Origin: Brienomyrus brachyistius
Taxonomy: Eukaryota > Chordata > Actinopteri > Osteoglossiformes > Mormyridae
NCBI RefSeq assembly: GCF_023856365.1
Contig: NC_064554.1
Coordinates: forward strand, 5,137,001-5,201,000
Length of the DNA stretch: 64,000 nucleotides
Reading direction: 5' to 3'
The translations under genes and the position numbers were made by a program. How positions within the stretch are numbered: position 1 is the stretch's first letter; the number at the start of each line of letters is the position of its first letter. Below are positions 7,701-58,438 of the stretch, piece by piece. The notes under the pieces are model-generated. The model was not told the DNA's origin and searched no databases. It was given only the letters and a program-made list of their open reading frames with translations.

Positions 7701-8030
7701 CTGCTTAGCATTTAGCTTCTCACTGGCCGGGGCGGCAGGAAAAGAAAAGCCTTTATTAACGGGCGTTAAGTACAGCCAGCTTAACGGAGTGTAACTCAGC
7801 TCGGAAAAAAAAACGCGTGTTTATGCTGTGAGTACAGCCACTGTAGGGAGTCTGTGTGATAGCAGGCAGGCCCAGTGTCTGTCCCACCCCCATCCTTCCA
7901 GGACTGAACTGGAAAAAAAATCCCGGAAGGGACAAATGGAAAACCAGATCCGCAGAAGGCATCAGACTGTTCCAGGAAACAGCCGACGAAGTATTTTCAT
8001 TTTTCCATAAAATGAAGCAAGGTTAGGATC
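4790..8030. other. gene-free stretch with short repeats
   Basis: No supported gene. An open frame of 107 codons at 6150-6473 (+) contains a short 'GCTAATGCTAAA' repeat and has no recognisable similarity. At about 7013-7055 lies one copy of a dispersed motif (TTTGGGG..CCCTGTTGGCC) that also occurs at about 14325 and, inverted, at about 41900-41945. Confidence 0.4.
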
Positions 8031-8037
8031 ACTCTGC

Positions 8038-9775
8038 AGGGGGCGTGTCTGTTACCAATAGGGTGTGGTGCCGGTGGGGGCGTGTCTGTTACCAATAGGT
8101 TGTAGTGCCAGTGGGGGCGTGTCTGTTACCAATAGGGTGTGGTGTCGGTGGGGGCGTGTCTGTTACCAATAGGGTGTGGTGCCGGTGGGGGCGTGTCTGT
8201 TACCAATAGGGTGTGGTGCCGGTGGGGGCGTGTCTGTTACCAATAGGTTGTGGTGCCAGTGGGGGCGTGTCTGTTACCAATAGGGTGTGGTGCCGGTGGG
8301 GGGCGTGTCTGTTACCAATAGGGTGTGGTGCTGGTGGGGGCGTGTCTGTTACCAATAGGGTGTGGTGCCAGTGGGGGCGTGTCTGTTACCAATAGGGTGT
8401 GGTGCCGGTGGGGACGTGTCTGTTACCAATAGGGTGTGGTGCCGGTGGGGGCGTGTCTGTTACCAATAGGTTGTGGTGCCGGTGGGGGCGTGTCTGTTAC
8501 CAATAGGTTGTGGTGCCGGTGGGGGCGTGTCTGTTACCAATAGGGTGTGGTGCCGGTGGGGGCGTGTCTGTTACCAATAGGGTGTGGTGCCGGTGGGGGC
8601 GTGTCTGTTACCAATAGGTTGTGGTGCCGGTGGGGGCGTGTCTGTTACCAATAGGTTGTGGTGCCGGTGGGGGCGTGTCTGTTACCAATAGGGTGTGGTG
8701 CCGGTGGGGGCGTGTCTGTTACCAATAGGGTGTGGTGCCGGTGGGGGCGTGTCTGTTACCAATAGGGTGTGGTGCCGGTGGGGGGCGTGTCTGTTACCAA
8801 TAGGGTGTGGTGCCGGTGGGGGGCGTGTCTGTTACCAATAGGTTGTGGTGCCGGTGGGGGCGTGTCTGTTACCAATAGGTTGTGGTGCCGGTGGGGGCGT
8901 GTCTGTTACCAATAGGGTGTGTCCCTGTGGGAGGGTTCGGGAGGTATATCTCTTACCAATAGGTTGTGGTGCCGGTGGGGGTGTGTCTGTTACCAATAGG
9001 GTGTGGTGCCTGTGGGGGCGTGTCTGTTACCAATAGGGTGTGTCCCTGTGGGAGGGTTCGGGAGGTATATCTCTTACCAATAGGTTGTGGTGCCGGTGGG
9101 GGCGTGTCTGTTACCAATAGGTTGTGGTGCCGGTGGGGGCGTGTCTGTTACCAATAGGGTGTGTCCCTGTGGGAGGGTTCGGGAGGTATATCTCTTACCA
9201 ATAGGTTGTGGTGCCGGTGGGGGCGTGTCTGTTACCAATAGGGTGTGGTGCCTGTGGGGGCGTGTCTGTTACCAATAGGGTGTGTCCCTGTGGGAGGGTT
9301 CGGGAGGTATATCTCTTACCAATAGGGTGTGGTGCCTGTGGGGGGGCGGGGGCATGTCTGTTACCAATAGGGTGTGTTCCTGTGGGGGGGGGCAGAAGGC
9401 ATATCTCTTACCAATAGGGTGTGGTGCCTGTGGGGGCGTATCTGTTACCAATAGGGTGTGTCCCTGTGGGGGGGGGCAGGGGGCGTATCTCTTACCAATA
9501 GGGTTTGGTGCCTGTGGGGGCGTATCTCTTACCAATAGGGTTTGGTGCCTGTGGGGGCGTATCTGTTACCAATAGGGTGTGTCCCTGTGGGGGAGGCAGG
9601 GGGCGTATCTCTTACCAATAGGGTTTGGTGCCTGTGGGGGTATGTCTTTTACCAATTATGTGTGTCCCTGTGGGGTGGGGGGGGTGTCTCTTACCAATAG
9701 TGTGTGTCCCTGTGAGGGGGATGCCTGTGTACAATAGGGTGTGGTACCAGTAGAGGCGTGTCTCTTGCCAATAAG
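8038..9775. repeat. 37-bp minisatellite with 121-bp higher-order repeat
   Basis: The 37-bp unit (core 'CGTGTCTGTTACCAATAGG' plus 'GTGTGGTGCCGGTGGGGG') runs head to tail for about 1.74 kb, roughly 40 copies. From 8040 to about 8900 units are nearly identical, with G/T variants in the GGGTG/GGTTG stretch. From about 8900 to 9310 a 47-bp variant (GTGTGTCCCTGTGGGAGGGT…) alternates with two 37-bp units, giving a 121-bp higher-order period. After 9310 the units decay (longer G-runs, CGTATCTCTT variants). Minus-strand and plus-strand open frames here reflect the repeat only. Confidence 0.97.

Positions 9776-23614: not shown

Positions 23615-23666
<52 letters not shown>
23615..23666. repeat. (TTA)n microsatellite
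   Basis: About 17 copies of ATT/TTA immediately left of the inverted-repeat composite. It ends two or three bases before the TATGGCG terminus of that structure. Confidence 0.97.
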
Positions 23667-23669
<3 letters not shown>

Positions 23670-23699
23670 ATGGCGTCAAATTAGTGCCAAATGTCGTAC

Positions 23700-23930
23700 G
23701 CATAAAAACCACGCGCGCATGCACTTGCGAGCAGAAAATCCATGTTCTCTACGCGCTCGCGATTGCGCAGCACTCACTCTCTCGGCGTTAAATTAGTGCC
23801 AAAAGTCGAACCACTCGCGTGTGTGCGCTCGCGTGCTGAAAACCCATCCCCTCTAAGCGCTCGCGTTCGCTGGACCCTATCTACGCGCTCGCGTCTGCAC
23901 AGCACTCGCTCGCTCGACAGGAAGAATTTT
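23700..23930. repeat. GCGCTCGCG-rich subterminal repeat region
   Basis: The motif 'CGCGCTCGCG' or 'GCGCTCGCG' recurs several times between about 23745 and 23910, and 'AAATTAGTGCCAAA' occurs twice (near 23678 and 23790). The element terminus therefore appears duplicated here. The right arm keeps only one such motif next to its terminus. Subterminal repeats of this kind often serve as transposase binding sites; that role is inference. Confidence 0.6.
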
Positions 23931-24421
23931 GACACTTTGGAGGCGGGAACAGTGGCTAATGGCTCTGCTTCTTTGATTATTTTTTTTAATATTGATTACG
24001 ATTGGCTATTTGCTTTGGTAGAAGATGAAGATAATTGACCAGTGGATGTGGGATTCACACTGTCATGATGTCGGAGCAAATAGGTCTTACACTGAGTTCA
24101 CATCTTTTAGAGATTCTGTTTTCATATTCCACGTTAAGGATTGGAATCGTGTGTGTCTTAATTAAAGCAGAGCTTGAAATTCAATACGGTATAGCTGGTA
24201 TCTCGTGCAATATTATTTATTCACAGTCTGCTATCATAATTTGGGAATTACCCGCTTCGTCTTACCGTATACAAAAGAATTGGCAAATGTACGGTAAATT
24301 GCATTGTGAATAACATTTCTTAATACAACATCACAAAGCCAATTTAATAAATTCAAATCCTGGGAAGAGCGCTCCTCAGATATTAGTTCTCGGGTTAGTG
24401 TTAGCAGACTATAGGCGAAAC

Positions 24422-27400
24422 TATTATTGAAGTTTATTAAACTATTACTTGATTTGATCATTAGTCATGGCATCCTGGTAGAACATGTGTCTATTATGCC
24501 ACAGAGTCCTCTGCTCTCAGATCATTACTTGTTAACATTTGAAATCCAGTATAGCCTCCTGTTGACCACCACTCCAAAGTATAGAATCAGACGTTCTATT
24601 AAGGCACTAACTACAACAACATTTATGAAACAACTTCCACAGTCCTTTAGCCTTACATCTGAAGCATCGTGTGTAAATGAACTTGAACAGGCAACTTCAA
24701 ACATGGAAAAATCCCTTCGCAGCACTCTAGATCTTGTGGCTCCACTTAGGAGTATAAAGCATAGCAATAACAAACCTGCCCCCTGGTACTCTGATAATAC
24801 ACGTGAACTCAAACAGGCATCACGCAAGCTAGAGCGAAAATGGCGCTCAACTAAACTGGAAGTTTTCAAATCTGCCTGGAAAGAGAGCCTCTCTAAATAC
24901 AGACAAGCACTAGTAACTGCTCGGTCTGTGTATCTCTCCAGATTAATAGACATGAACAAAACCAATCCTAAATTCCTATTTGAATCCGTGGCTAGGATAA
25001 CACAGAATTCCTCATTAAACTTGCAAATCCCACAAGCTCTTAAGAGTGATGACTTTCTTACATTTTTTAATGGTAAGATAACTACAATTAGACAGACTAT
25101 ACAGTGCACACCTTTACCTACTTACGGCTGCCTGCCTCCTGCTAGTCTTATGCCTACCAATAATGAGACCTTTGAATCATTCATTCCTATTACACACTCA
25201 GAACTTTTGAGCTTAATTTTCTCCTGTAAATCCTCTACTAGCCTTGTAGACCCAATTCCTACAAAATTCTTCAAGGAAATTGCACCACAGATTGGCACTA
25301 CCGTGTTAAATGTGTTAAACTCTTCTCTTAGGCTTGGATATGTTCCAAAACCTTTTAAAATGGCTGTTATCAGACCCGTCCTAAAGAAACCAAATCTTGA
25401 ACCCAGTGTTTTAGGAAACTATAGACCTATCTCAAATCTTCCTTTCATTTCAAAGATCATGGAAAAGGTTGTAGTTCGTCAGTTGTCCTCTTTCCTACAA
25501 AAAACTAATGCCAATGAATTATATCAGTCTGGCTTTAGACCAAACCATAGCACAGAAACTGCTCTAGTCAAAGTAATGAATGATCTACTTGTGGCTTCTG
25601 ACCGTGGCTGTGTATCTCTGTTGGTATTGCTAGATTTAACTGCAGCGTTCGATACTGTGGACCATAATATCCTCTTGGACCGGTTAGAAGGTGTAGTTGG
25701 CATTACAGGGACAGCGCTCTCTTGGTTCCGCTCATATTTGTCTGATCGCTATCAGTATGCCCATGTGAACAATGAATCATCCAAGGCCATTAAAGTTGAA
25801 TATGGTGTCCCACAGGGATCAGTCCTGGGCCCGCTACTGTTTACCCTATACATGCTACCTCTTGGTAACATTATTAGAAATCATGGTATTGGGTTTCATT
25901 GTTATGCAGATGATACACAGTTGTACATATCTGTTAACCCTGATGATATATCACTGCTATCTCGGTTAGAAGACTGTCTATTAGATATCCAGTGCTGGAT
26001 GGCAAAAAATTTCCTTATGTTAAACACAGAAAAAACAGAAGTTCTGGTAATTGGTCCCAAGGCTGCTAGAAATAAGTTCCACCACCTCAACGTTGGTAAC
26101 CTTCCTACACAACCTAACATGGTAGTTAGAAATCTTGGCGTTCTTGTCGATTCAGATCTATGCTTTGATGCTCACATAAGAAGTATTACTAGAACTGCAT
26201 TTTATCATCTACGGAACATAGCCAAGCTTCGTAAGATGCTCTCACTTAATGATGCAGAAAAACTAATACATGCCTTCGTAAGTTCCAGACTGGATTACTG
26301 TAATGCCCTCCTATCGGGTTGCCCGTCTGGATCCTTGCATAAACTTCAGATGGTACAGAATGCTGCAGCCAGAGTTCTAACAAACACTAAAAAATTTGAT
26401 CATATTACACCGGTCTTATCCTCTCTTCATTGGCTGCCAGTTAAGTCTCGAATTGACTATAAAATACTGCTATTAACTTATAAAGCACTAAATGGCCTTG
26501 CACCAGAATACCTTAGTGAACTGCTGACCACATACAACCCTCCACGCTTGCTTCGCTCTCAAGCCATGGGATATCTGTTAGTGCCTAGGGTAGAAAGAGC
26601 TACGGCAGGCTGCAGAGCTTTCTCCTACAAAGCTCCTCTGCTGTGGAATGGTCTTCCACCGGATGTGCGGGTTTCAGGTTCACTCTCAATATTCAAGTCC
26701 AGACTAAAAACACACCTGTTTAGTTTAGCGTATAGGGACACTAGTTCTAGCCCTAGCTAACTCTTCACTCCCAGGCAGACCTGTAGTGTGAGGTGTAGAG
26801 CTGGGTGGGGATCGGTGCCATTGGCTTTGGATGAACTGGATTGTCAGTGCTGTCACTCTAGCTTTGCAATCTCTTGTGGAACTGGAGTGCTGACATTTCA
26901 GGGACTCCCCATGCCGGCATTCCCACTTGCCTCTCCCTCCTACTGATGCTGCCATAGCCATATCTGCCGGAGCTTGCAGATTGCACTTCATATTGTACTC
27001 ACCTAGCTTTTAGCACTGCCAATAGCCTCCTCTACTATGCCTAATTGTACATTTTATTTCCCCTACTCCTCCTGGGGGTGATGCCTGGAGACCTCAATCT
27101 ATCAAGATATCCAGCACACCCGACCACCACCAGTGACGTCCCTGCATCCAGCTCGCCGTTCTGATCTTCCATGTATGACCCGCTGCCTTACCTCTGGTTG
27201 CCTGGCAATTGGAAGAAGACTCGGCTTCGGCATTGGCTTATCTTCCTTGCTCTCCTCTCTCTATTTGACTATCCCTGCCGGCCCCTGGAGGATGGGCTTC
27301 CCCTTTGAGTCTGGTCCCTCTCAAGGTTTCTTCCTTCTAGGGAGTTTTTCCTTGCCACTGTCGCCTATGGCTTACTCACTGGGGGCTTTGGGTGAGGATA

Positions 27401-27477
27401 CTGTAAAGCGCTTTGAGACAATGTAATGTTGTGATAATGCGCTATATAAAAATAAATTTGTTGTTGTTGTTGTTGTT
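24422..27477 (+). mobile_element. 5'-truncated L2-like non-LTR retrotransposon with target duplication
   Basis: The insert is bounded by GAAAC at 24417-24421 and 27478-27482. The right arm of the composite has the single uninterrupted site (33132-33136, reverse strand), which fixes both borders. It begins inside the C-terminal part of the endonuclease domain, so it is 5' truncated. It carries a full reverse transcriptase region and a 3' UTR ending in 'AAGCGC'-type sequence, 'GCGCTATATAAA' and a (TTG)n tail. That tail layout is typical of fish L2 elements in the CR1/L2 group. The open frame and intact duplication indicate a recent insertion. Confidence 0.9.
24427..26760 (+). CDS. L2-type ORF2 fragment: reverse transcriptase (endonuclease mostly lost)
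   Basis: A 777-codon open frame without internal stops. Residues about 15-45 are the tail of an apurinic-like endonuclease domain (motif LLSDHYLLTFEI). The reverse transcriptase domain follows from about residue 270, with 'NYRPISNLPFISKIMEKVV', 'QSGFRPNHSTETAL', 'LLDLTAAFDTVDH', 'GVPQGSVLGPLLF' and the catalytic 'YADDTQLY'. The C-terminal part (HSLHW/LPV-type 'HWLPVKSRIDYKILLLTYKAL') is the usual L2 tail. The enzyme would copy LINE RNA at a nicked target. Without the full endonuclease and 5' promoter, autonomous activity is unlikely. The first Met is only the first ATG inside the truncated frame. Confidence 0.93.
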   Translation: MKFIKLLLDLIISHGILVEHVSIMPQSPLLSDHYLLTFEIQYSLLLTTTPKYRIRRSIKALTTTTFMKQLPQSFSLTSEASCVNELEQATSNMEKSLRSTLDLVAPLRSIKHSNNKPAPWYSDNTRELKQASRKLERKWRSTKLEVFKSAWKESLSKYRQALVTARSVYLSRLIDMNKTNPKFLFESVARITQNSSLNLQIPQALKSDDFLTFFNGKITTIRQTIQCTPLPTYGCLPPASLMPTNNETFESFIPITHSELLSLIFSCKSSTSLVDPIPTKFFKEIAPQIGTTVLNVLNSSLRLGYVPKPFKMAVIRPVLKKPNLEPSVLGNYRPISNLPFISKIMEKVVVRQLSSFLQKTNANELYQSGFRPNHSTETALVKVMNDLLVASDRGCVSLLVLLDLTAAFDTVDHNILLDRLEGVVGITGTALSWFRSYLSDRYQYAHVNNESSKAIKVEYGVPQGSVLGPLLFTLYMLPLGNIIRNHGIGFHCYADDTQLYISVNPDDISLLSRLEDCLLDIQCWMAKNFLMLNTEKTEVLVIGPKAARNKFHHLNVGNLPTQPNMVVRNLGVLVDSDLCFDAHIRSITRTAFYHLRNIAKLRKMLSLNDAEKLIHAFVSSRLDYCNALLSGCPSGSLHKLQMVQNAAARVLTNTKKFDHITPVLSSLHWLPVKSRIDYKILLLTYKALNGLAPEYLSELLTTYNPPRLLRSQAMGYLLVPRVERATAGCRAFSYKAPLLWNGLPPDVRVSGSLSIFKSRLKTHLFSLAYRDTSSSPS

Positions 27478-27858
27478 GAAACCACCTCACGTGCTATCTG
27501 TTAATGTTTATTAAATTAGCATTAAAATGGAGAGGTTTTTAATATCTTTTGGCCTTGTAGCTGCTAAATACACTCATTATTAAAGCCATAAAGTTGTCTG
27601 CCTGTTACATTGGAATCTCCACTGAGTAAGTGTTTTTGATGGATTTTATTTAACTTTATTTGACTCTGGTCCTTAGATCTAATGTCATACTTCTTCACTT
27701 ATATTGTTTGTGAAAAGGTTTACCACAATCAAACAGAGCAGCCACTACATCATCATACATGAACAAGCACCTTACAAAACAAAAACATTTCATTTTCATG
27801 ATTAAAACTTTTGAATGGTAGGCCTAGTGTGTGGATCAGAGACAAGATCTTGACATCT

Positions 27859-28226
27859 CCATCCATCCATCCATCCATCCATTTTCCAAACCGCTTATCC
27901 TTACTGGGTCGCGGGGGGTCCGGAGCCTATCCCGGAAGCAATGGGCACGAGGCTGGGAACAACCCAGGGTGGGGGGCCAGCCCATCGCAGGGCACACTCA
28001 CACACCATTCACTCTCACATGCATTCCTACGGGCATTTTAGTAAGCCCAATTAGCCTCAGCATGTTTTTGGACTGTGGGGGGAAACCGGAGTACCCGGAG
28101 GAAACCCCACGACGACATGGGGAGAACATGCAAACTCCACACCCATGTGACCCAGGCGGAGACTCGAACCCGGGTCCCAGAGGTGTGAGGCGACAGTGCT
28201 AACCACAGCACCACCATGCCGCCCCC
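27859..28226 (-). mobile_element. Full-length tRNA-derived SINE with 12-bp target duplication
   Basis: Read on the minus strand it begins with a tRNA-like head: A-box region 'TGGTTAGCACTG' and B box 'GGGTTCGAGTC'. A conserved body with 'TTTGCATGTTCTCCCCATG' follows, and it ends in (ATGG)n, seen as (CCAT)n on the plus strand. It is flanked by ATCTTGACATCT at 27847-27858 and 28227-28238. The right arm of the composite lacks it, giving an empty-site control. It resembles the V-SINE/Mermaid type of fish SINEs; that name is tentative. Truncated relatives occur at 51464, 54741 and around 56640-57045. Confidence 0.88.
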
Positions 28227-28251
28227 ATCTTGACATCTCATTAGCTATAAT

Positions 28252-28975
28252 TTGTTCTGTGAACAGCTCAGATTCCACCTTCTCGAAAGTCTTCTGCATA
28301 AAATAGAAATGGGATTCAGTGCGACTCCACTAAATTTGGATTACGTGGAGTTCCTTTGTCATCAGGAGCTGTATCTTCTGCAGGCCCTGTCTAATCACAC
28401 TGAAGTACCTTCTGCTATCACCCTGGCTTTGCAAGAGCTCTTTGACCTTGTGAGGGCATATCTGGAACGTCCAGCCCCATGTGTCACACAGGAAGTCACT
28501 GCCACCAATGGACGACCCAAGAATTTGATTGAAGAACAACGTTTGAAAGAAATGCTCCATACTCAACTTCCTGTGCCTTACATAGCCACACTGATGGGTG
28601 TTTCAAGAAGAACAATCTTAAGAAGAATGAAAGAGTATGAGCTCTGTGTTAGGGACACATATAACTCCATCAGTGATGAGGAACTTGACAATTTGGTTTT
28701 TTCTGTCAAGAATGATCTACCAAATGCAGGCTACAGGATGGTCAGAGGGAGGCTGCAGTCAAATGGGCTACAGGGCTCGGTGGAGAAGCGTTGCAGCCTC
28801 CATGCATAGGGTTGATTCCATGCGCATCATATCAAGGTTGTCAAGTCTTGGCTGTGTTGTACGCAGAATGTACTCTGTACCAGGGCCCTTGTCTCTGGTA
28901 CACGTGGACACAAACCACAAGTTGATCCGGTTTGTATTAACAGCAAATTTATTTGAAGCAAATTTATTGAACATC
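28252..28975 (+). pseudogene. Integrase-like element gene, left copy (frameshifted, truncated)
   Basis: The first frame (28252-28809, 185 codons) contains an alpha-helical N-terminus, a GRP…EEQRLKEML segment and a helix-turn-helix-like 'IATLMGVSRRTILRRMKEY'. A +1 shift near 28757-28763 moves the reading to 'MGYRARWRSVAASMHRVDSM' and then 'RRMYSVPGPLSLVHVDTNHK', the start of an integrase-type catalytic core (DTNHKLIR). After 'LIR' the sequence looks like a weak splice donor and the rest of the core is missing. I recall similar 'integrase core' proteins scattered through fish genomes, often next to repeats, but cannot place the superfamily securely. The same frameshift occurs in the right copy. 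Confidence 0.7.
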
Positions 28976-29890
28976 TAAAAGCTGCTAGTAGACCGTGGGA
29001 AAATAATTTTTCAATTTTCTTGCTGCCATCTCGTGGCCAAAAGTAGGTACTGCAGTTTGAAAACAAATGATTTCTTGTCGAAATTGCAATACCTACTTTT
29101 GGCCACGAGATGGCAGCAAGAAAATAGAAAAATTATTTTCCCACGGTCTACTAGCAGCTTTTAGATGTTAATTCTTCATTAAAATAATTTGACTTGGTCC
29201 AATGTATTTTTAATACAAACAATTACCACACAAAGCTGCTAGTAGACCGTGGGAAAATAATTTTTCTATTTTCTTGCTGCCATCTCGTGGCCAAAAGTAG
29301 GTACTGCAGTTTGAAAACAAATGATTTCTTGTCGAAATTGCAATACCTACTTTTGGCCACGAGATGGCAGCAAGAAAATAGAAAAATTATTTTCCCACGG
29401 TCTACTAGCAGCTTTTAGATGTTAATTCTTCATTAAAATAATTTGACTTGGTCCAATGTATTTTTAATACAAACAATTACCACACAAAGCTGCTAGTAGA
29501 CCGTGGGAAAATAATTTTTCTATTTTCTTGCTGCCATCTCGTGGCCAAAAGTAGGTACTGCAGTTTGAAAACAAATGATTTCTTGCCGAAATTGCAATAC
29601 CTACTTTTGGCCACGAGATGGCAGCAAGAAAATAGAAAAATTATTTTCCCACGGTCTATTAGCAGCTTTTAGATGTTAATTCTTCATTAAAATAATTTGA
29701 CTTGGTCCAATGTATTTTTAATACAAACAATTACCACACAAAGTTGCTAATAGACCGTGGGAAAATAATTTTTCAATTTTCTTGCTACCATCTCGTGGCC
29801 AAACGTAGGTACTGCAATTTTGGGGCGAAATCATTTAATTATTTTCAAACTGCAGTACTTAAATTTTGCCACAAGACGGCAGTATAAAGA
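28975..29890. repeat. Tandem array of 254-bp units, each an ~85-bp-arm palindrome
   Basis: Three full 254-bp units plus a diverged fourth. Within each unit 'AAAGCTGCTAGTAGACCGTG' through 'GGCCAAAAGTAGGTACTGCA' is followed, after about 30 bp, by its near-perfect reverse complement. A linker with 'TTAATTCTTCATTAAAATAA' and 'CAAACAATTACCACAC' joins it to the next unit. Unit spacing is exactly 254 bp between 29194, 29448 and 29702. The last unit has diverged, including its right arm (AAATTTTGCCACAAGACGGC). Each unit could fold into a strong hairpin. The motif GCCATCTCGTGGCC occurs in opposite orientation in the two arms. Confidence 0.95.
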
Positions 29891-30103
29891 GCGAAAAAAC
29901 ATAATTTTACTAAACAAAAACAGTTTTTTTTACGCAATAAAGCAATTTTAATATTGTTTCACTTTCCAAAAAAGTTTTCATCAATAATTACCATATAAAG
30001 CGGCCACAGGACCATGGGAAAATCATAAATTTAATGTTATAATAATAATATCTGTAACACTGCCCACCACATACCTGCTTCATTTATTGTTTTATACTTG
30101 CAG

Positions 30104-30797
30104 CTGCTTATTCAGACAGCTCGTCTACCTGTCTGTCCATGTTGCCGTCCCATGACAACTGGTCCAGCCTCCAGGTGCCGTCCCATTCAGGCATGTTACC
30201 CATGAGTCATAGCGGCACCTCCGGGAGCAGCTCCAGGTGAGCCCGTAGCCTCCCCTCCCCCACCTGCCCCCATGCTGAGTCTCGGGCCCCCGTCTTCCCT
30301 CTTGTTCTCGCCTATACCCACATCCTGGCCTGTGTCTGCATCGTCTCACCTCGTTAACAGGTCTTTCACCTTCTTTCCTAATCCATTCAGGCCCATCACT
30401 GCATTCTGGGACATGCTTTGATTTATTTCGCCATAGTTACTCTTTGTTTTCCTTTGTACTTTGCACTCTACAAGTAAAATGAATAAAAAATAGGCATTAT
30501 TTTGATATTGTTTTAGTACAGTGACACTGTAGTATATTTGTTGTTGTTTCCAGGCAACACTGCCTGCTGATTTAACGTCTTTCCTTAATCTCCACCCCAT
30601 TGCTCACACACAGCCAGTATCCCAGTTTGTGGTCAATGAGCTCCTCCTCGCTCACCCCAGTCTCCCAGTCCAGTGGAATGTCCAACAGCTTGGGCTCTCA
30701 GTTCCTGCGCAGCTCTACAACTCATTACCCAGGGCTCTCGCACCTGGCCACAGTGCCCCTCTCAGGCTCCCCGCTGTATGACAGCACTGCCCCATCG
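30104..30797 (+). pseudogene. tbxt: Captured two-exon fragment of Brachyury/T-box gene
   Basis: Exon A (30104-30236), preceded by an acceptor (TTTATACTTGCAG), reads 'AYSDSSSTCLSMLPSHDNWS'. Exon B (30614-about 30797), preceded by 'CACACACAG', reads 'QYPSLWSMSSSSLTPVSQSS', then 'GMSNSLGSQFLR' and 'SGSPLYDS'. These match the C-terminal transactivation region of vertebrate Brachyury proteins in order. The join (…SSS|S QYPSLW) works at canonical GTGAGC…CAG sites, so the intron (30237-30613) was carried along. This points to a DNA-level copy rather than a retrocopy. The T-box DNA-binding domain is absent and the last part of the C-terminus is replaced by unrelated sequence ('HRNFSLF'). It cannot encode a working factor. 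Identification rests on recalled family similarity. Confidence 0.85.
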
Positions 30798-31174
30798 GAA
30801 GTTCATCGGAATTTTTCCCTTTTTCTTTATGTCTGGCAGTTTACCATCTAATAGGCATTTTTTTTTCTTTTTATGCACTTTGAGATGTGTCTAGGTCAGA
30901 TACGACCAAAATATTTTTCTTATTTCAGAAGTGGAAAAAAAATATTGCTCTCAGATTCTGTTCAGTTGTAGCTTTTTAAAATAATGTACCTTGATTTGTG
31001 TTTGTTTAAAATGCCATTACCTGCTGCTTACTGGGCCCCTGAAAATGTCTGGCCCAGCTAAATTTCTTGGTTTGAAAATCTGGCCCAACTACTTTCCAGA
31101 CCTGGACTAGCCCTACTGAATCATACACTAATGTTATTCTCTTATGTGGGCTGTTGTGATAGGGAGATTTGCAG

Positions 31175-31240
31175 GATGCTGCACGACGGGTGGTGTCCCT
31201 GCTGCAGAATGCCCTGTCTGAACCAGCACCTAGAGACAGT
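31175..31240 (+). other. Possible exon-like fragment of unknown gene
   Basis: After 'GGGAGATTTGCAG' the frame reads 'DAARRVVSLLQNALSEPAPR' followed by 'DSEG'. It has protein-like composition but no match I can name. It may be another captured exon or chance. Confidence 0.25.
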
Positions 31241-32024
31241 GAGGGTTGTTGTTATAACCTTAATATTGTATATAAGCCATCTGTTATTTCTTAACTAATT
31301 TAATTGTAATGTATTCTTCTGATATGTTGTGCACAGCTAACAAACAAGAGAAAAATGCAAAACCAAAGGAAGGCTTTCTTTTCTCTTAAAAGTCTTTTTT
31401 CTAAACCAACTGAGAGTCCGTTAGAGGGGTGTTCATTATCACTATTGTTGCTGGCATTTCTGAAAATGTGCCAATTTTAGTCAAGTGGCTACTTTTCAAA
31501 TGCAGTCCCTGGCCAAGATGAAGAAAGCCATTAAGTCGGGTTAAAACAAAGTTCATGAAGACTACATGATAATATTAAGCACTGACATAACAAACAACAT
31601 TTTTTACATGCAAAATATACAGGAAATATACACTGCAACAGGCTAGGATAGACAAATAACCAAATACACTTGCAAGCCTGACCACTTTAGACCCCAGATT
31701 AGAAAATTGGTGAATGAATATATTTTTTTTCCAAGTTTTGTTTAATTTGCTTTCAAGTTCTCACAAATAATAATAAAAAAAAAAGATTTCCCACTATAGC
31801 CAGATCCAGTTTCTGTGGGGGGCGGGGGGGGGGTGACAATTTGTAGTAATAACTATTTCCTGCTGAAAAACACTGGTAAACTATCCACATGTCTCTGAAT
31901 ATCTGTGAGTCCCGAGACCTCCATGACACATAGATATAAGTTGCCAGCGTTGATCGGCAGGAAATCTTCTCCAAAGCCCCACCACCACCTCACACCAATC
32001 CACCCAGGGCTGTAGATGAACAAA

Positions 32025-33394
32025 CTTCAAATAAATTTGCTGTTAATACAAACCGGATCAACTTGTGGTTTGTGTCCACGTGTACCAGAGACAAGGGCCC
32101 TGGTACAGAGTACATTCTGCGTACAACACAGCCAAGACTTGACAACCTTGATATGATGCGCATGGAATCAACCCTATGCATGGAGGCTGCAACTCTTCTC
32201 CACCGAACCCTGTAGCCCATTTGACTGCAGCCTCCCTCTGACCATCCTGTAGCCTGCATTTGGTAGATCATTCTTGACAGAAGAAACCAAATTGTCAAGT
32301 TCCTCATCACTGATGGAATTATATGTGTCCCTAACACAGAGCTCATACTCTTTCATTCTTCTTAAGATTGTTCTTCTTGAAACACCCATCAGTGTGGCTA
32401 TGCAAGTCACAGGAAGTTGAGTATGGAGCATTTCTTTCAAACGTTGTTCTTCAATCAAATTCTTGGGTCGTCCATTGGTGGCAGTGACTTCCTGTGTGAC
32501 ACATGGGGCTGGACGTTCCAGATATGCCCTCACAAGGTCAAAGAGCTCTTGCAAAGCCAGGGTGATAGCAGGAGGTACTTCAATGTGATTAGACAGGGCC
32601 TGCAGAAGATACAGCTCCTGATGACAAAGGAACTCCAGGTAATCCAAATTTAGTGGAGTCGCACTGAATCCCATTTCTATTTTATGCAGAAGACTTTCGA
32701 GAAGGTGGTATCTGAGCTGTTCACAGAACAAATTATAGTTAATGAGGTGTCAAGATCTTGTCTCTGATCCACACACTAGGCCTACCATTCAAAAGTTTTA
32801 ATCATGAAAATGAAATGTTTTTGTTTTGTAAGGTGCTTGTTCATGTATGATGATGTAGTGGCTGCTCTGTTTGACCGTGGTAAACCTTTTCACAAACAAT
32901 ATAAGTGAAGAAGTATGACATTAGATCTAAGGACCAGAGTCAAATAAAGTTAAATAAAATCCATCAAAAACACTTACTCAGTGGAGATTCCAATGTAGCA
33001 GGCAGACAACTTTATGGCTTTAATAATGAGTGTATTTAGCAGCTACAAGATATTAAAAAGGCCAAAAGATATTAAAAACCTCTCCATTTTAATGCTAATT
33101 TAATAAACATTAACAGATAGCACGTGAGGTGGTTTCGCCTATAGTCTGCTAACACTAACCCGAGAACTAATATCTGAGGAGCGCTTTTCCCAGGATTTGA
33201 ATTTATTAAATAGGCTTTGTGATGTTGTATTAAGAAATGTTATTCACAATGCAATTTGCCGTACATTGGCCCATTCTTTTATATACGGTAAGACGAAGCG
33301 GGAAATTCCCAAATTATGATAGCAGACTGTGAATAAATACATACGCTCGCGTGGTTTTTATGCGCGCGACTTTTGGCACTAATTTAACGCCATA
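32025..33394 (-). mobile_element. Right arm of composite inverted repeat
   Basis: This is the reverse complement of the left arm's shared sequence. It runs from the terminus (33394, reading TATGGCGTTAAATTAGTGCC on the minus strand) through the single GAAAC site and the undisturbed SINE target, and ends at CTTCAAATAAATTTGC. The two integrase frames are about 95% alike in protein by eye. It lacks the subterminal GCGCTCGCG block, the LINE and the SINE. It ends about 350 bp upstream of the mpg start codon. Confidence 0.8.
32031..32731 (-). pseudogene. Integrase-like element gene, right copy (frameshifted, truncated)
   Basis: The minus-strand frame from 32731 parallels the left copy: 'MGFSATPLNLDY', 'IATLMGVSRRTILRRMKEY', then a shift to 'MGYRVRWRRVAASMHRVDSM' and 'SLVHVDTNHKLIR'. 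The shift lies at the same place (about 32218-32225) as in the left copy, so the progenitor was already defective when the two copies formed. The catalytic core is cut after 'LIR', and the following sequence differs from the left copy. Confidence 0.7.
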
Positions 33395-33742
33395 ATTAAA
33401 TATCTTCCAGAAAAGAGTCTGATTTCTCTGCTGTTAAGCTGTACCTTTAAGCGCGGTCACGAGATCCCAGAATCCTTTGGGGGATGAAACCTGGAAGCGA
33501 AGCACATGCGCCTCTTATGCCGATAAATAGCATAATTAGTGGACTTTCCTTCTTTGGTTTATTATTTATATCAATTATTGATTTCTTCTACTGCAGCGAT
33601 ACTTAATGCTGTCTCCATAAAACCTTAATTATAACGTTTTACTTTATTTGCTGGTGTAATTGTCCTGATCGATGTTATTTGGGCAGATGTGGTGTAGTTA
33701 CCTTGCGTTCTGCCTCCTGTCGTATCTTTCTTATGCACATAG

Positions 33743-51065: not shown

Positions 51066-52302
51066 TTAATAGTACTGTCTTGACAAGGCATAGACAACCA
51101 CCGCAAGAAACTTCTGGAAGGTGTTCTGGACATCACAGTTGAAAGCGGAGCCAAACTTGAGCGCGAGGACAATGGTGACGCAGTCACCCAAGAGCTAAAC
51201 GGGACAAAAGACAGAATATGAGCATCGAAATCTTCCCATGCTATAATTTACTTATAGGCAGTTAACGATTTATTAATTTATTTATTCAATTTATTTATGC
51301 AGACATAAAAGTCGCCCTTCCAGAATGAGTTTGACATGCATTCGCGGTTTTGGTTATTCGCCAACTGGCTGCAGTGGCAGCGTAACTCAAAAATATATGA
51401 ACAATACTGAAAATGATTTAGATCACATGAAATCATTTAATATATAAATATTAGTGTTAGGCTGCAATGGGCTGGCCCCCCATCCTGGGTTGTTTCCTGC
51501 CTCGTGCCCATTGCTTCCGGGATATAGGCTCCGGACCCCCCCGCGACCCAGTAGGATAAGCGGTTTGGAAAATGGATGGATGGATATTAGTGTTAGGCTA
51601 CTTAATATTTGTCATTGTAACAACATGCAATATTTTAAATATTACTATTATTCAAGAATTTTCGCGTTCGCGGGGATCATCTGCTCTTAACCTTAGCGAA
51701 TGTGAAGGGGTGATATTAGGCGTCCTGTTTCCTTTTTGTAAGGAATCCTGTATTGCTGTTGTTGTTGAATTTTTTTTTTTACAGTGATAGCTTCCACACA
51801 TGCTGCAGTATTATAACTGCAGTGAGACCTACCCTGAAGTTCTCAGGATCCACATGTAATTTCTCGTTGTGCAGCTCGCTCAGTTCGGCATAAAGGTTCT
51901 TGATGCCATCCAAGTTCTTCACGGCTTTATCCAGGGACTTCAGCACAATCTTGCCGTGGGCGGCCACTTTGGGATTTCCTAAAATGGCAGCCGTGCTGGA
52001 CAGGTCTCCGAAGGACCCGAAATACCGCTGAGTCCACGGATAGACGATCAGCAGTCTGTATTACAGATATCACAACACAGATTTTTTTCATTGCAGAAAT
52101 TTCTTATCAAAATTGTATAGAGTAGATGTAAACTAACTCTCTCTCTCTCTCTCTCTCTCTCTGAATCTCTCTCTCTTTGTGTGTGTGTGCGTGTGTGTGT
52201 AAATATATACCTTGCCAAAGCCTGGGGTCCGACTTCATTTATATTGACTTTTTCCCAGACCTTCTTCATTGTAGCACGCTCAGCATCCGTCCATTTAACC
52301 AT
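51066..52302 (-). CDS. hbb: Beta-type haemoglobin chain 1 (C-terminal Tyr)
   Basis: Exons 52211-52302 (92 nt), 51833-52055 (223 nt) and 51066-51194 (129 nt) give 147 aa; sizes and phases are the classic beta-globin ones. The protein binds haem and pairs with alpha chains to carry oxygen in red cells. Visible features are '[18 protein letters not shown]', '[15 protein letters not shown]', distal His in 'KVAAHGKIV' and proximal His in '[17 protein letters not shown]'. Residue F9, next to the proximal His, is Asn. The C-terminus is 'ALSRQYY', so HC3 is Tyr instead of the usual His. NA2 is Lys, where fish beta chains usually have an acidic residue. These changes are expected to weaken the Bohr/Root effects, as in cathodic fish haemoglobins. 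Intron 2 contains a SINE fragment and intron 1 a (CT)n run. An ATTAAA at 51026-51031 (minus strand) may be the polyadenylation signal. It is divergently paired with alpha 1. Confidence 0.97.
51464..51583 (+). mobile_element. 5'-truncated SINE in beta 1 intron 2
   Basis: Contains only the 3' part of the SINE seen whole at 27859-28226 (GCAATGGGCTGGCCCCCCAT … GCGACCCAGTAGGATAAGCG … ATGGATGG). It is flanked by a 16-bp duplication ATATTAGTGTTAGGCT at 51448-51463 and 51584-51599. The clean duplication indicates a fairly recent insertion. Confidence 0.9.
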
Positions 52303-53784: not shown

Positions 53785-54590
53785 ATGTCTCTGACCGACT
53801 CAGACAAGGCCATTGTGAAGAAATTATGGGCCAAGATCGCTAGCAAAGCTGATGAAATCGGTGCTGATGCCTTGGGCAGGTGGGATTTCTCAGATTAATC
53901 GGCTAAAAGCACATTTTCAAAACCTAAGCAATGTGATCCCTGTTAAAAACTTAACTTGCGTTGTGGACATTACTCCTGTTGTTTTTTTATGTTTCATGTG
54001 TGCAGAAATAATGAGTGTCCTAACATTATTTTTTTCCCTGACAGAATGCTTTACGTCTACCCCCAGACCAGGACATACTTTGCTCACTGGCCCGACATGA
54101 GCCCCGGATCCGCTCCTGTTAAAAACCATGGGAAGATTGTCATGAAAGGTGTCGGTGACGCTGTCAGCAAAATAGACGACCTCATCGGTGGACTAAGCGC
54201 ACTTAGTGACTTGCATGCTTCCAAACTGCGAGTCGATCCTAGTAACTTCAGGGTAAGTCAGAATAATTAAACTGATGACGCCTGTTTTCCCAAACAGCAT
54301 GAGCTGTGCAATAGATGAACTTTACACATCTGTACTATATGCTCAGCAGCACCGTCTATTCAAACCGTCTGCGTTATATGTACTACGTAACTCATGCCAT
54401 CAGGTCGTTTATGCTGACACTTTTCTTATATGTAACCCGGTCAACACCTCCACTTTTGCAGATCCTGGCCCACAATCTTCTTGTATCCATCGCTGTGTTT
54501 TTCCCGGCTGACTTCACGCCTGAAGCTCACGTCACGATGGACAAGTTCCTGGGCGCGGTGGCTGCAGCCCTCTCATCTAAATACAGATAA
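53785..54590 (+). CDS. hba: Alpha-type haemoglobin chain 1
   Basis: Exons 53785-53879 (95 nt), 54045-54252 (208 nt) and 54462-54590 (129 nt) give 143 aa, the usual fish alpha length. It is the haem-binding alpha subunit of the tetramer. Motifs are '[18 protein letters not shown]', '[18 protein letters not shown]', distal His in 'VKNHGKIVM', proximal His in '[13 protein letters not shown]' and the end 'LSSKYR'. The start MSL and overall pattern recall fish embryonic-type alpha chains; stage cannot be told from sequence alone. Polyadenylation signal AATAAA at 54639-54644. It faces away from beta 1, with 1.48 kb between start codons. Confidence 0.97.
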
Positions 54591-57710: not shown

Positions 57711-58438
57711 TTAGTGGTACTGCCTGCCGAGGGCGGAAACGACCACAGCAAGGAACTTCTGGAAGGCTTCCTGCACATCAGCGTTGAATACAGAGGGTCC
57801 CAACTTGGCAGCCACGCACACGGTGATGCAATCGGACAGAAGCTGAAGGAGGAAAAAGATACACGTTTTAAAAACTAGTAAAGACCTTTATAATACACTG
57901 TGCAGTCAGTGGTGTTTAACGGGATGCTTGCGCGTTATCAATATCAAGATACACTGGTCAAGCATACACCAGCTTGCATTGCACTTACCCTGAAGTTATC
58001 AGGGTCGACATGGAGTTTATCGGAGTGCATCACACTCAGATCATTGTAGACTGCCTTGATGTTATCCATGTTCTTCACAGCTTTGTCCAATGCACCCATT
58101 ACGACCCTTCCATGCGCGGCTACTTTGGCATTGCCCAAGATGGCAGCGGGACTGGAAAGATTACCGAAGGAACTGAAGTACCTCTGAGTCCAGGGGTACA
58201 CGATCAGGGTCCTGAATGACACAGGGAATCACAGTAAGCACGCATGTACAATTACGGAAGTCATGCAGTCACATGGAGTAATTCGAGCCACAACTGTCTG
58301 AGAACGTATATTTAAGATTAATCGCGTTTTTCACTGAATACAGTACCTGGATAAAGCCTGGGGTCCGATTTCGTCGGGGCTCAATTTTCCCCACAGGGAG
58401 ACGATGGCAGCACGCTCAGCTTCAGTCCATTGCACCAT
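57711..58438 (-). CDS. hbb: Beta-type haemoglobin chain 2 (Root-effect-type residues)
   Basis: Exons 58347-58438 (92 nt), 57989-58211 (223 nt) and 57711-57842 (132 nt) give 148 aa. Motifs are '[18 protein letters not shown]', '[15 protein letters not shown]', distal His in 'KVAAHGRVV' and proximal His in '[17 protein letters not shown]'. F9 is Ser and the C-terminus is 'ALGRQYH', keeping His HC3. In fish beta chains Ser F9 plus His HC3 are the classical residues linked to strong pH-dependent oxygen release (Bohr and Root effects). Exon 3 is one codon longer than in beta 1 ([10 protein letters not shown]), a known fish variant. AATAAA at 57622-57627 on the minus strand. It pairs divergently with alpha 2, 2.08 kb between start codons. 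Confidence 0.97.

Follow-up and report, generated by a model that had tools for sequence, protein, structure and literature searches.

The window analysed here is a stretch of 64,000 nucleotides from the African electric fish Brienomyrus brachyistius (Mormyridae; contig NC_064554.1, positions 5,137,001 to 5,201,000), and all coordinates below are counted from its first letter. It contains the gene mpg, recognised through PDB matches to 3-methyladenine DNA glycosylase, the gene nprl3, and globin-like exons at 51782–52060 (−), 53947–54267 (+) and 57947–58228 (−). The latter were recognised by motif alone, and we assign the + strand exon to the alpha type and the two − strand exons, which lie on either side of it, to the beta type. 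Adjoining mpg is a 9.7-kb fold-back DNA transposon (23669–33394), the loop of which holds a piece of the gene for the T-box transcription factor Brachyury (T), which acts in patterning the embryo. The right end of the element (33394) is located 348 bp upstream of the mpg ATG (33743), i.e., in or beside the promoter region of that gene.

The two arms of the element were defined by blastn comparison of arm against arm and by inverted-repeat analysis. The left arm spans 23669–28958 (+) and is interrupted by later insertions, and the right arm spans 32025–33394 (−). Alignment by blastn yields four collinear pieces with 1349 identical bases out of 1377 (∼98%); the segment 28227–28958 pairs with 32025–32756, and the remaining pieces pair further out. 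A region of ∼495 bp in the left arm (23716–24210) is missing from the right arm. The ends of the element read TATGGCG...CGCCATA, i.e., it has TA..TA termini, and they are flanked by an imperfect target-site duplication, ATTAAC on the left (23663–23668) and ATTAAA on the right (33395–33400), in which five of six bases are equal. The left flank contains TTAA and overlaps an (ATT)n tract. An alternative reading of the flanks is an exact TTAA on both sides (23664–23667 and 33396–33399), which would suit other superfamilies.

Both arms contain the same 5′ part of an IS3EU/GingerRoot-like transposase gene. In the left arm this part extends over 28252–28929 (+) and ends with the residues HVDTNHKLIR, directly before a GT at 28930; the equivalent GT in the right arm is at 32053. 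The coding sequence stops after HVDTNHKLIR, and the integrase-type core is cut at this point; the aspartate in this motif is presumably the first catalytic D of the transposase. Relative to three related proteins (P0002, P0006 and P0007), the same frameshift is present in both arms, at 28748–28767 and 32216–32235. Since it is common to both, the frameshift is older than the fold-back, and the arms are copies of a transposase gene that was already broken. The open reading frame of the arm shares 92% identity with a Brienomyrus protein over 93% of its length, and 17 related proteins were found, five of which carry a species name, in each case that of a fish. Three relatives were scanned for domains: the integrase core rva_4 reaches the Pfam cut-off in P0006 (E = 5.3e-27) and in P0015 and stays below it in P0002, and helix-turn-helix matches in the arm itself are below the Pfam cut-offs. 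From its sequence, the element is classified as non-autonomous and IS3EU/GingerRoot-like. The published marks of IS3EU/GingerRoot elements are TA..TA termini and, usually, 6-bp target duplications (PMC10045372); the present element shares the termini, its imperfect flanks may be a duplication of about 6 bp, and some relatives of its transposase have an integrase-type core, but it differs in that this copy keeps the 5′ part of the transposase alone, inverted on both sides.

Two insertions in the left arm postdate the formation of the arms, because the right arm continues without a break at the two corresponding sites. The first is of LINE type (24422–27477, +), is bounded at both ends by the direct repeat GAAAC, and contains a 777-codon reverse transcriptase open reading frame at 24427–26760 (RVT_1, E = 2.2e-34). 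The second (27860–28226) starts with (TCCA)n and has the 13-bp repeat ATCTTGACATCTC at both ends; a part of it, 27928–27990, is found again in inverted orientation at 51462–51524 (94%).

The T piece in the loop consists of two exons and the intron between them, all on the + strand. Exon A (30104–30236) comprises the end of codon 300, T residues 301–343 and two bases of codon 344, and is flanked by ttgcag upstream and gtgagc downstream. The intron (30237–30613) has been kept at a length of 377 nt with GT...AG boundaries. Exon B, preceded by cacacag, is represented by its 5′ part (30614–30806), which completes codon 344, extends to T residue 408 and is broken within the coding sequence. Spliced together, exons A and B encode 108 residues free of stop codons, and the fragment lacks both a start codon and the stop codon of T.

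A 105-residue piece of these exons was used as query against 5.77 billion proteins and returned 179 matches. The best match is P0019, a T-box transcription factor T-like protein from Brienomyrus brachyistius itself (E = 6.0e-52, 99% identity), which shows that a full-length T protein is on record for this species. Among the matches listed, i.e., the best 120 of the 179, the next highest identities are those of Scleropages (78%) and Arapaima (77%), and gar T is second by E-value with 69% identity. All of these 120 are vertebrate proteins, and nearly all are named T or brachyury, with a few entered as "hypothetical" or "unnamed". Pairwise alignment with P0019 is gapless over residues 301–408 and identical at 107 of 108 positions, the sole change being L in the window versus P in P0019; the sequence specific to the C-terminus of T is thus present. 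The T exons gave no match in Pfam or PDB; since the T C-terminus is possibly missing from both, this result does not weigh against T. When the whole 433-residue P0019 was compared with the 64-kb window by tblastn, matches were obtained at residues 301–333 and 344–409, which correspond to the two captured exons; two other rows had E-values of 1.1 and 8.6, and the rest of T was not found in the window by this search. Hence residues 301–408 of T alone are present and the T-box DNA-binding domain is absent from the window, and the captured piece is, by its sequence, a fragment of the T gene and not a T gene. These results are in agreement with the first-pass annotation of the window, which had proposed a pair of T-box exons with canonical splice sites and an intact intron, placed between inverted arms and away from any T-box gene context; the window contains no complete T gene, and the suggestion of a DNA-level origin is likewise supported by the kept intron.

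On the right of the T piece, similarity to T stops at 30806 (...APSEVH), inside a coding exon and nine bases beyond 30797, the end originally assigned to the feature. Past this point, RNFSLF stands in the window in place of the EASQYD of the T protein, and exon B continues in the T frame for 14 residues, RNFSLFLYVWQFTI, before a stop codon. On the left, the boundary is bracketed between 30027 and 30104 by a tandem array of palindromic 254-bp units (28978–29820; 3.3 copies, 98% alike, each unit a long and nearly perfect palindrome, detected by TRF and as inverted repeats), followed by a diverged further unit of the same type that is 71% identical over 293 aligned columns and reaches 30026 (blastn). 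At most 77 bases separate this last trace of the array from exon A, and the T piece measures at least 703 and at most about 780 nt.

To the right of the T piece, the sequence 30807–31136 has no match elsewhere in the 64-kb window. It is followed by a loop segment (31137–31229, −) that corresponds by sequence match to the C-terminal tails of P0002 (LOC125745333) and P0007 (LOC125709117), two predicted Brienomyrus proteins. An overlapping stretch on the opposite strand, 31163–31238 (+), was considered as a second captured host exon, as it is preceded by AG and followed by GT and reads GDLQDAARRVVSLLQNALSEPAPRD; this candidate was rejected. It found nothing in PDB or Pfam, and nothing in a padded protein search that covered about the last 16–17 of its 25 residues and proteins of 0.55 to 1.75 times 647 residues. 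The stretch is treated as loop sequence of the element because its minus strand matches the tails of the two predicted transposase-like proteins.

In P0002 and P0007 the transposase exon of the arm comes first and the loop-encoded tail last. The tail of P0002 matches 31137–31229 (−) at 22 of 25 residues (E = 3.4e-09), and that of P0007 gives an overlapping match in another frame (E = 2.5e-13). In both proteins the switch from ...HKLIR to the tail coincides with the GT at 32053 and with an AG just before 31229 in the window, and the P0002 tail shows a frame change relative to the window after CWFR. The two loci lie on two Brienomyrus contigs, of 32.3 and 24.3 Mb. Both proteins differ from the copy in the window, being about 95% identical to its right arm, and no more than one of the two could correspond to the present locus. 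That the element is multicopy, with arm and loop piece 31137–31229 standing together at two Brienomyrus loci, is partly shown by these predicted proteins.

We consider it probable that the feature is a Pack-TIR, i.e., a fold-back IS3EU/GingerRoot-like transposon whose loop carries a genomic piece copied from the Brachyury gene. The captured stretch lies between the two terminal inverted repeats of one DNA transposon, it derives from a non-transposon host gene, and its retained intron distinguishes it from a retrocopy. For the capture itself, we infer a DNA-level template-switch origin of the T copy. Repair or replication would have passed through the loop beside the 254-bp array and stalled or broken there, with the palindromes perhaps acting as the trigger; synthesis would then have jumped to the T gene, used it as template for ∼0.7 kb and returned. 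The palindromic array is, by the same reasoning, a likely place of fork stalling or breakage. The T fragment is probably passive cargo of the element, and the single amino-acid difference in 108 residues, together with the divergence of ∼2% between the arms, is compatible with a young event.

With respect to the order of events, the chances are about evenly balanced that a fold-back element without T inserted first, and that T sequence served as filler when its palindromic loop later broke and was repaired. The position of the palindromic array right next to the T piece fits such gap filling, which according to PMC8277862 lies behind most single-copy animal Pack-TIRs; however, the same source finds the donors to be preferentially close (56.9% within 15 kb), and the 64-kb window contains no other T sequence. 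The reverse order, in which the T piece was already part of a mobile multicopy element that jumped upstream of mpg as one unit, is possible and is put forward tentatively. It would explain why the TA..TA termini and the near-perfect target duplication flank the unit as a whole, and the recurrence of the arm and one loop segment in two predicted Brienomyrus proteins speaks for it, but neither P0002 nor P0007 contains T residues. Furthermore, PMC8277862 attributes multicopy Pack-TIRs to fork switching followed by transposition and reports few of them in animals, four in the reference genomes.

Both orders of events assign the T piece to the transposon. It is improbable that part of T was segmentally duplicated or translocated and came by chance to lie between two inverted insertions: DNA-level duplication does not require a transposon, and T and its source are indeed unlinked in the window, but a bare piece of ∼0.7 kb is enclosed here in a transposon loop, and the arms, with their TA..TA termini and flanks that nearly agree, look like both ends of a single element. 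That the piece is a retrocopy, or processed pseudogene, is for practical purposes excluded by the retention of the 377-nt GT..AG intron, and the break is not accompanied by a poly(A) tract.

Capture of gene fragments by DNA transposons is known from animals. In a survey of 100 animal genomes, Tan et al. 2021 catalogued 370 Pack-TIRs (PMC8277862), and with this kind of event already described, the first-pass annotation went too far in calling the T exons unexpected; the Pack-TIR reading makes them a good new case of a known process. As in the animal Pack-TIRs of PMC8277862, genomic DNA of non-transposon origin is enclosed by a TIR DNA transposon, the introns of multi-exon parents are kept and the parental gene would lie elsewhere. 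A difference concerns the carrier, which is IS3EU/GingerRoot-like here, whereas the terms "IS3EU" and "Ginger" are absent from the main text of PMC8277862. Compared with Ssk-FB4 of Drosophila, the present element is similar in that long (∼700 bp), repetitive TIRs are associated with a host gene taken up at the DNA level; however, Ssk-FB4 took up nearly all of Ssk, exists in multiple copies and has been described as a young protein family (PMC8277862), whereas the present capture comprises two C-terminal exons with neither start nor stop and is known from sequence alone. Turmoil-1 of C. elegans likewise combines host coding sequence with an animal inverted-repeat transposon, but carries it inside the terminal repeats (PMC2572040) and not in the loop. 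No description of the present case was found in the titles and abstract beginnings of the open-licence literature searched. In this vertebrate locus, the capture of a gene fragment by a cut-and-paste transposon is well preserved. The intron is intact and the parent protein almost the same, and for these two reasons the event may be young enough that sister species still reveal its breakpoints and template switches.

A broader possibility is that the T-carrying form itself moves as a multicopy fold-back family and has spread two C-terminal Brachyury exons through mormyrid genomes. We regard this as unlikely. If true, the usable splice sites would feed T-derived exons, or antisense or hairpin RNA, into host transcripts of mormyrids, a group known for rapid speciation.

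At the present locus, a T-like function is unlikely, because the fragment lacks the T-box and because an arm exon spliced to it would not enter the T frame. When the left-arm donor at 28930 is joined to exon A, the T frame is lost and the reading continues as CLFRQLVYLSVHVAVP to a stop codon, 16 residues beyond the common R. The T exons may be included in transcripts, and the chimeric transcripts envisaged in the first-pass annotation are a possible but weak prediction. Compared with any T-related effect, an effect of the insertion on the expression of mpg would be no less plausible. With the end of the element so close to the start of mpg, and near globin genes, an influence on local transcription is amenable to testing.

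Elsewhere in the window, 7928–9719 is occupied by a long minisatellite with a period of 37 bp; from 8781 on, it also includes repeats of another family, spaced by 37, 84, 121 and 176 bp.
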